This document shows, in pieces, positions 36,096-37,822 of a DNA stretch of 46,672 nt. Source of the stretch: Phycisphaerae bacterium (GTDB lineage: Bacteria; Planctomycetota; Phycisphaerae; Sedimentisphaerales; Anaerobacaceae); NCBI GenBank assembly GCA_028714255.1, contig JAQTMR010000015.1:1-46672 (forward strand), in the 5' to 3' direction. The position numbers and the translations under genes were made by a program. Under the pieces are notes generated by a model that was not told the DNA's origin, ran no database searches, and saw only the letters and a program-made list of their open reading frames with translations. Numbering within the stretch: the first letter of the stretch is position 1; each line of letters starts with the position of its first letter.

Positions 36096-36665
36096 ATGGT
36101 AGAGTTCCAACGATTGGAGGGAATTCCTGAAACAACCGGCAAGGAGTGGATGAGCCTTGCTTATTTGAGGGCTATATGCGCACAGGCTGGATTAAATATA
36201 CGTGATTGGAAATTTGATAATGGAATAGACTTAAATGTAGGATCTTCTAAGCCTATAGGCAGCAATGGTATAGCTAATGTATTTCTCGCCCTTCAGCTAA
36301 AGGCAACTGAACGCTGGAAAGTTGAAGGTGATGGCCATATTAAATACGACCTTCCTATAAAAAATTATAACCAATTACGACGAGAAAGTCTTTGTCCGCA
36401 GTATCTTGTTTTATTTGCATTGCCTTCTGGAGTAGGCAATTGGATAAAATATCAATTTGAGCATATAAATCATGAACATGTGGTTGAGATGAGACATATG
36501 GCTTATTACCTTAGCTTGCTGGGGCAACCAGCAGTTGAAAATACGGAGACAATTAGAATTGACATTCCCGTTAAAAATAAATTAACAGCAGAGGTATTGA
36601 TTAACTTATATCAAGCGTTTGCTAAAGCACAACTTTGGGTAACTAATCAAAGGAAGAGCGGATAA
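36096..36665 (+). CDS. DUF4365-like protein (PD-(D/E)XK-type fold), first gene of a coupled pair
   Basis: 189 residues. The pattern resembles DUF4365: a helix GKEWMSLAYLRAICAQAGL with Glu17, then DNGIDLNV (Asp45), VFLALQLKAT (Gln67-x-Lys69), YDLPIKNYNQLRRES, PQYLVLFALPSGVGNWIKYQ, MAYYLSLLGQPAVENTETIR and DIPVKNKLTAEVLINLYQA. The E...D...QxK set is the variant nuclease signature of this superfamily, with Gln replacing the usual Glu. The mix is A+T-richer than the chromosomal genes around it, suggesting transfer. The TAA stop shares its last A with the next ATG (TAATG, 36663-36667), so translation is coupled. Confidence 0.75.
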   Translation: MVEFQRLEGIPETTGKEWMSLAYLRAICAQAGLNIRDWKFDNGIDLNVGSSKPIGSNGIANVFLALQLKATERWKVEGDGHIKYDLPIKNYNQLRRESLCPQYLVLFALPSGVGNWIKYQFEHINHEHVVEMRHMAYYLSLLGQPAVENTETIRIDIPVKNKLTAEVLINLYQAFAKAQLWVTNQRKSG

Positions 36666-37822
36666 TGATGTCGCGACTCGATATTCCGGATAATCTCTTA
36701 AAGGCAACTGACCCTTCAGCAGTAAGAACGTTCTTGCTTAATTCAGGATTTGAGTTGAGCGGAATAAATAATGATGTTGCTGAAGCATACAGCATTAAAG
36801 ATGGTGGCATTGTTATTTTACCACTTAAAAAAGAGACTCACGAATATACCAAATTACTATTATCATTGGTGGAATATATAGGGCATATAATGAAATTGTC
36901 ATTCGACGATGTGTTAGGGCTTATTGCCAGTCCAAACAGCGATATTATGCGTTATAAAATTCATACCGAAGACTCGAAATTGGGACATCTCCGTGCAGAT
37001 GAAATCCGATCAGCAACTTCCGGGATTTATAATATACTGATTAACTCTGCAAAGAAGATTGCTAATATTAGAAAAAGGCCTAATATTCGAGAATCTGCTC
37101 ACAACTATGCCGATGGTTGTAAGTTCGGACAGACTGAATATGGGAGTTTTGTACTAAAAGTTTTCTGTCCTACAAGTGATTTGGGATTGAAAACAGAATA
37201 TGCAGAACCATATTGCAGAGAAGTCACACGGGGGGTTGTTGAGAATTTTCGTTTCCTTGCATATAACGATGTGAGTGATCCTGAAGTTATTTTACCGCCG
37301 ACCATGTCTAAAGATGTAGCTAGATCAATTACTGAAATGCTCCCATTAAACCCGTTAATGTTCTCGGCTGGTATTGCTGTACGCTATTCACCGCTTAAAG
37401 ATCCTACTAGTACTTTAGCAAATCAATTTACGAAAACAGAGGATGAAAGTATAGACTTCAAAAGCAATTTATTTGAAAAAGCTGAAATACTATTTCAGCG
37501 TTACCGTAAAGCAGAGGAATTTGAGCGTGAAACATTAATTGGATTTATCACGGATTTGCATAAGGATCCTCCGGTTAAAAAAGACCCCTTAGAAAAAGAA
37601 ATTTCCCATCGAATCACGATGGAATTGAAATTCGGGACCACACATCGCAAGGTAACTACCATATTGATGGCGCCTGATTATCGTAGTGCTATTAAATGGC
37701 ATGACGAAGGGATAGAGATAATACTCGATGCAATAATAGATAAACGAACCAAGAAATGGGGCGTTCACGAAATGTTTGACCTGCGCCCTCGTGACCCACA
37801 ATCCGAGAATAAGCTTTTTTAA
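36665..37822 (+). CDS. Unknown protein coupled to the DUF4365-like gene
   Basis: 385 residues; ATG 36668 is an alternative start. Not recognised. The N-terminal segment MSRLDIPDNLLKATDPSAVR looks like a small helical region, then KETHEYTKLLLSLVEYIGHI. The middle GSFVLKVFCPTSDLGLKTEYAE followed by PYCREVTRGVVENFRFLAYN is beta-rich. The end has TMELKFGTTHRKVTTILMA and a strand-loop-strand KWGVHEMFDL. No membrane segment, signal peptide or known catalytic motif is present. The 1-base overlap with the DUF4365-like gene and similar A+T-rich composition suggest a two-gene module, possibly nuclease plus specificity or target-binding subunit. That function is inference. Confidence 0.7.
   Translation: MMSRLDIPDNLLKATDPSAVRTFLLNSGFELSGINNDVAEAYSIKDGGIVILPLKKETHEYTKLLLSLVEYIGHIMKLSFDDVLGLIASPNSDIMRYKIHTEDSKLGHLRADEIRSATSGIYNILINSAKKIANIRKRPNIRESAHNYADGCKFGQTEYGSFVLKVFCPTSDLGLKTEYAEPYCREVTRGVVENFRFLAYNDVSDPEVILPPTMSKDVARSITEMLPLNPLMFSAGIAVRYSPLKDPTSTLANQFTKTEDESIDFKSNLFEKAEILFQRYRKAEEFERETLIGFITDLHKDPPVKKDPLEKEISHRITMELKFGTTHRKVTTILMAPDYRSAIKWHDEGIEIILDAIIDKRTKKWGVHEMFDLRPRDPQSENKLF

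Follow-up and report, generated by a model that had tools for sequence, protein, structure and literature searches.

Two adjacent genes in the 46,672-nucleotide stretch of Phycisphaerae DNA analysed here ("the window") form a divergent member of PDC-M02, a candidate phage-defence system listed in PADLOC-DB v2. The product of the first, gene A, matches the PDC-M02A profile (E 1.3e-40, residues 12-177), and that of the second, gene B, matches PDC-M02B (E 1.3e-28, residues 10-370), a profile that also recognises each of the 73 aligned B sequences. The catalogue entry is matched in gene order, gene sizes, strand, and overlap as well, whereas the clade of the window is set apart by a long branch of 2.6 changes per column and by B substitutions of its own. 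The preliminary description knew of no named system with this composition; the pair cannot be kept as an unnamed system, since PADLOC already lists it, and its proposed status as a defence candidate agrees with that listing, the role in defence being a putative one. PDC-M02 is thus already known as a computational candidate. The PDC entries, putative defence candidates, are attributed to Payne et al. 2024 (the "guilt-by-embedding" preprint), with validation still pending for most of them (PMC12988326). Two others, PDC-M63AB and PDC-S04, had no effect when tested in one native host (PMC12409345), so candidate status is no proof of defence. The literature searched yielded neither a publication naming PDC-M02 nor a phage test of it. 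New here are the folds of A and B, the matching of the A active site to that of SPARDA, the reciprocal linkage of the two genes, and their carriage by phages and plasmids.

Genes A and B lie on the same strand and share one base within a TAATG (Table 1), and the open reading frames, coordinates, strand, and overlap are as originally described. Both are maintained as proteins under purifying selection, as judged by comparison with the counterpart pair of the nearest relative, Planctomycetes bacterium GWC2_45_44 (locus L028): A is 69% identical to its counterpart, with dN 0.18, dS 1.04, and dN/dS ~0.18, and B is 77% identical, with dN 0.12, dS 1.19, and dN/dS ~0.10. The GC content of the pair is 38%, with third positions at 31-32% versus 37-62% in the other genes measured nearby. 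The pair had been called A+T-richer than its neighbours, which stands for the flanking genes measured (third positions 46-62%), with the exception of a small membrane ORF at 30.2-30.5 kb that is also A+T-rich (34% GC). This low GC content is consistent with recent acquisition.

Table 1. Position of the gene pair and of its predicted domains and motifs in the window.
Feature	Position	Strand	Remarks
Leader of gene A, with AGGG ribosome-binding-like site	36080-36095	+	
Gene A (PDC-M02A)	36096-36665	+	189 aa; predicted stand-alone DUF4365/DREN-type PD-(D/E)XK nuclease
D41-D45 codons of A (D-x-x-x-D)	36216-36230	+	71/71; D45 is the putative metal-binding Asp, by analogy with NbaSPARDA D41
Q67-x-K69 codons of A (QxK, predicted catalytic motif)	36294-36302	+	71/71; putative equivalents Q62/K64 in TmuRE and Q60/K62 in NbaSPARDA
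Gene B (PDC-M02B)	36665-37822	+	385 aa; translationally coupled to A (TAATG overlap; AAGGA at 36650-36654)
HicA/dsRBD-like alpha-beta domain (predicted), B residues 8-90	36686-36934	+	lacks the HicA catalytic His
GQTEYGSF, B residues 155-162	37127-37150	+	most conserved B motif, in the middle region (~101-285)
OB fold (predicted), B residues 286-381	37520-37807	+	resembles SSB, PriB, RPA, RecG wedge, and PolC

Relatives were collected with B as the only bait. A scan of 84,980 species genomes, confirmed by tblastn, gave 80 loci, and further B sequences came from 392 Planctomycetes genomes searched with a profile and from one Caballeronia plasmid. Three scan loci (L031, L048, and L077) are duplicate contigs of L022, L023, and L026, and 86 distinct loci were therefore counted. 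Gene A stands directly upstream of B, on the same strand, in 81 of these 86 (in a few of them split or truncated), and the commonest arrangement is a 4-nt overlap; the linkage on which the initial proposal depended is thus found in other genomes as well. Gene A is reduced to fragments in L051 and L066, and is absent from L053, where B itself is broken, and from L087. In Nitrobacter sp. Nb-311A (L104:5326-8073), A lies 2.7 kb from B with an IS110-family transposase in between, and this transposase apparently cuts the start of B. When the same 392 Planctomycetes genomes are searched with A alone, the nine strong matches fall in the very nine genomes that carry a full-length B, and two further weak matches (E 7e-8 and 4e-5) lie in longer reading frames. 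Together with the 81 of 86 loci, this reciprocal result speaks for an obligate two-gene unit. The pairwise distances of A and B across 71 loci correlate with r 0.854, a value reached by none of 2000 permutations (best permuted value 0.22), which indicates that partners are rarely swapped; no fused A-B protein was seen among the loci collected. A and B form one inherited and transferred two-gene unit.

Protein A belongs to Pfam family DUF4365 (PF14280; E 9.2e-18, residues 19-173), as had been recognised at the outset. Its AlphaFold2 model has a pLDDT of 92, and the nearest solved fold is the DUF4365 domain of SPARDA (Foldseek E 5e-5; VIA Z 12.9 over 147 residues, rmsd 4.5), followed by the Hjc Holliday-junction resolvases (Z 10.3); I-Ssp6803I is also near in fold. 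The only residues invariant in all 71 homologues are D41, D45, Q67, and K69. From the PD-(D/E)XK signature first suggested, D45 and Q67-x-K69 are therefore retained, whereas Glu17 is conserved in part (a Glu in 44 of 71); the invariant D41 had not been listed. The catalytic residues of NbaSPARDA are D41, Q60, and K62: D41A and Q60A abolish activity, K62A impairs it, and D41A also abolishes defence (PMC12205087). The double mutant Q62A/K64A has been made as the inactive form of TmuRE (PMC10810196). From motif order and fold, we infer that D45, Q67, and K69 of A are the equivalents of the triad of the SPARDA DUF4365 (DREN) domain. Having the fold and the active-site residues of DREN/DUF4365 nucleases, A should cut DNA, possibly RNA, with Mg2+, and its prediction as a Mg2+-dependent nuclease is well supported.

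In SPARDA, a short prokaryotic Argonaute is associated with a DUF4365/DREN-APAZ protein. The window pair has in common with it a DUF4365/DREN domain with a D-QxK active site, and a two-gene operon in which the nuclease gene comes first. In contrast, A has no fused APAZ, for which 189 residues with DUF4365 at 19-173 leave no room, and its partner is not a Piwi/Argonaute protein, but one matching PDC-M02B. No Piwi domain match occurs in the host genome, which is 98.9% complete. Lacking APAZ on A and Piwi in the genome, the pair is not a SPARDA; that system may serve as a guide to the effector half (activation, assembly, and non-specific DNA cutting), not as the family of the pair.

The AlphaFold2 model of protein B (pLDDT 89) comprises three parts, and the earlier view that the second protein has no recognisable motif has been superseded by the two folds that modelling suggests, an N-terminal HicA/dsRBD-like domain and a C-terminal OB fold. 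Residues 8-90 align with 1whz, which we take to be a HicA-like protein, over 70 of 70 residues at 2.7 Å (VIA-align Z 8.2, a Z near background level). A HicA profile built here matches B residues 19-60 (hhalign P 1.9e-4, probability 47%) and gives nothing comparable against the middle or C-terminal part of B or against family A. The conserved G28-W/F29 and P53 of B align with the G-W/F and VPxH positions of HicA. The column of the HicA catalytic His is occupied by V38 in the window and by His in 20 of 73 homologues. The HicA resemblance, in fold and profile, is weak; HicA toxins differ, moreover, in that window B lacks their catalytic His, is fused to other domains, and has no HicB partner. In the middle region, G155, T157, G160, S161, and F162 of the GQTExGSF motif are invariant, and Q156 and E158 are found in 71 of 73 sequences. 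Almost every top Foldseek match of B is an OB fold (best E 5e-3, with probability 1.0), and VIA gives Z of 7-8 over about 80-90 residues. Pfam tRNA_anti is matched weakly, at best with E 0.006, by 2 of the 73 B sequences. B has no recognisable ATPase, helicase, methyltransferase, or Argonaute domain, and APAZ, Argonaute, ATPase, and helicase are absent from its fold lists, which are filled by the OB domain and have little bearing on the middle region. Taken together, the HicA/dsRBD-like domain and the OB fold of the model suggest that B should bind nucleic acid; proteins and sugars are ligands of OB folds as well.

This HicA-like domain bears on an explanation of the pair as a toxin-antitoxin (addiction) module, in which A would be a DNase toxic to the cell and B would neutralise it, loss of B would be lethal, and any phage protection would be secondary. 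The genes are coupled and carried by plasmids and prophages, as such a module would be, and B is kept beside a broken, fragmentary, or absent A in L051, L065, L072, L078, and L087, as if A were costly. The choice of B as bait, however, favours cases of B without A, and sequencing errors may account for some of the broken genes in draft bins. In its size, its several domains, and a conservation equal to that of A (dN 0.12 versus 0.18), B is unlike typical antidotes, and it is A that comes first in the operon. We therefore regard an addiction module as unlikely.

That the pair is mobile, as had been surmised, is borne out by its flanks and carriers. Over 17 kb, the only stretch of the window with DNA similarity to L028 is 36082-37812 (77% identity), beginning 14 nt before gene A, so only the two genes are common to both and the flanks are unrelated. 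Two congeneric genomes lack the pair. In one such genome without the pair (G392), a PilZ gene adjoins the Sua5/LacAB_rpiB genes, whereas in the window the PilZ gene lies upstream of the pair and the Sua5/LacAB_rpiB genes are at 25.8-27.4 kb, which indicates that this stretch is rearranged between close relatives. About 17 plasmids carry B matches (A was checked where annotated or fetched), and no close plasmid DNA relatives were found. The Caballeronia pair (L018) and the Gluconobacter albidus plasmid pair (H24) are intact copies from mesophiles. In the Leptospira temperate phage LE1, the two genes are LE1-0038 and LE1-0037 (L170:2336-4014), annotated as unnamed or hypothetical; they were found by sequence, and an LE1 protein is also the best match of B among viral models (E 1e-19). 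In the Mycobacterium abscessus prophage prophi102-2, genes 1 and 2 are the pair (L171:398-2160); they lie right at one end of the prophage, a usual site of accessory prophage genes. Profile E-values for the LE1 and prophi102-2 copies range from 2e-35 to 8e-66. The B tree covers at least 11 phyla and places the window with the Planctomycetes loci L028, L029, and L030, two of which are named Phycisphaerae/Phycisphaerales. The window pair is a member of this divergent Phycisphaerae clade of PDC-M02, whose shared substitutions in B affect positions that are conserved elsewhere (N217 to D/Q, G315 to H, and A345 to W among them).

This distribution weighs on a reading of the two genes as a DNA repair or recombination pair with no role in defence, in which a resolvase-like nuclease would act with an OB-fold loading factor. 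The closeness of A to the Hjc resolvases, with which it has a PD-(D/E)XK core in common, and the resemblance of the B OB fold to PriB, SSB, and the RecG wedge would fit such a pair. Hjc differs in gene context, and A bears the QxK variant of the catalytic motif; we know of no Hjc with a B partner. The occurrence of the pair is patchy (9 of 392 Planctomycetes genomes, and neither of the two same-genus genomes), and its transfer as a cassette and its place at the end of the M. abscessus prophage are unlike a core repair function, which makes a repair pair very improbable.

The surroundings of the pair in the window had been described as an island with a transposase remnant, a RecB-like nuclease, and repeats, and of these only the nuclease is borne out as described. 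It is a 466-aa protein encoded at 32843-34243 on the forward strand, with a C-terminal RecB-like, D-x-ExK-like stretch (VDFKYSTGYTARVTVEVKYSS), an N-terminal partial match to the PADLOC candidate PDC-M36A (E 6e-10), and no Pfam family; it may be another defence candidate, partial or divergent, lying 1.9 kb upstream of the pair. The ORFs tested for a transposase remnant, at 32286-32632, have no Pfam domain, of a transposase or otherwise. The intergenic stretch 34250-36080 consists largely of dispersed repeats, with about 80 further matches genome-wide and short matches in two same-genus genomes; repeats matching so many other places do not mark the borders of an island. An upstream non-coding RNA or guide was likewise rejected, since 34200-38200 contains nothing that matches Rfam and the similarity to L028 ends 14 nt upstream of A.

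In other genomes, the neighbours of the pair include matches to type I RM, pAgo, SIR2, DRT4, and MTase genes; most neighbours across the loci are ordinary metabolic or housekeeping genes, so that the pair is often solitary, with no defence island around it. A PADLOC neighbour scan recovers 188 families, counted as families rather than genes, versus 73 in control regions from six Planctomycetes genomes, with matches there mostly to one reverse transcriptase, one PD-T4-6, and MADS; an enrichment of defence genes among the neighbours is only suggestive. In one locus (L087:2355-13691), the A-less B lies between hsdS-like and hsdR-like frames of what looks like a type I restriction operon, named from its sequences, which also encodes a nucleotidyltransferase-domain protein and a gene resembling its HEPN partner.

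A B gene inside a type I RM operon would suit a direct, restriction-like system, in which B would recognise a feature of foreign DNA and A would cut that DNA only, leaving the host unharmed. So would a PD-(D/E)XK nuclease whose fold is close to Holliday-junction resolvases and I-Ssp6803I. The conserved unit, however, has no methyltransferase or other self-marking gene, and SPARDA, the closest solved relative, cuts non-specifically once activated (PMC10810196, PMC12205087). A restriction-like system is, on balance, rather doubtful.

The preferred reading is that PDC-M02 is a putative two-gene DNA-targeting defence system, and probably so. With moderate confidence, the overall explanation would be a mobile cassette whose products form a nuclease-sensor complex against invading DNA. 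In its favour are the PDC-M02 matches, the linkage and joint transfer of the genes, their carriage by plasmids and phages, the invariant D-QxK residues, the B folds, and the defence genes near some copies; against it stand the ordinary neighbours of most loci, the purely computational basis of PDC systems with at least one negative test, the weak HicA resemblance, and the other ligands of OB folds. In the mechanism proposed, B would bind A and keep it inactive or unassembled; B would then bind a nucleic acid typical of infection, such as single-stranded DNA, replication or recombination intermediates, or phage RNA, and in its ligand-bound form would let A assemble and degrade DNA. Whether B is such a sensor and activator of A is evenly balanced in our judgement. 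The DNA degraded might be that of the invader only, or also that of the cell in an abortive infection; a collateral, abortive outcome rather than invader-only cutting is possible, and is put forward with some reserve. More generally, and tentatively, PDC-M02 may be an Argonaute-free and ATPase-free immune complex, in which an OB/HicA-like structure sensor, not a guide RNA, gates a SPARDA-type DREN nuclease; DREN would then be a plug-in effector for unrelated sensors, and the Phycisphaerae clade of the window a divergent subtype. If so, the collateral nuclease of short Argonautes would be found here under a guide-free sensor, in a system small enough for prophages and small plasmids, and what DREN needs in order to be switched on could be tested directly on a pair of short genes. 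Clear targets for mutants are the invariant residues of A and the GQTExGSF motif of B.

Elsewhere in the window, four cellulase-like ORFs lie in a row at 38144-44621, two of them tandem paralogues; the first (38144-39259) is GH5 by Pfam, and the other three were judged from sequence. On the reverse strand, 27651-30116 encodes an 821-aa protein with RCC1 repeats, here in a Planctomycetes genome.
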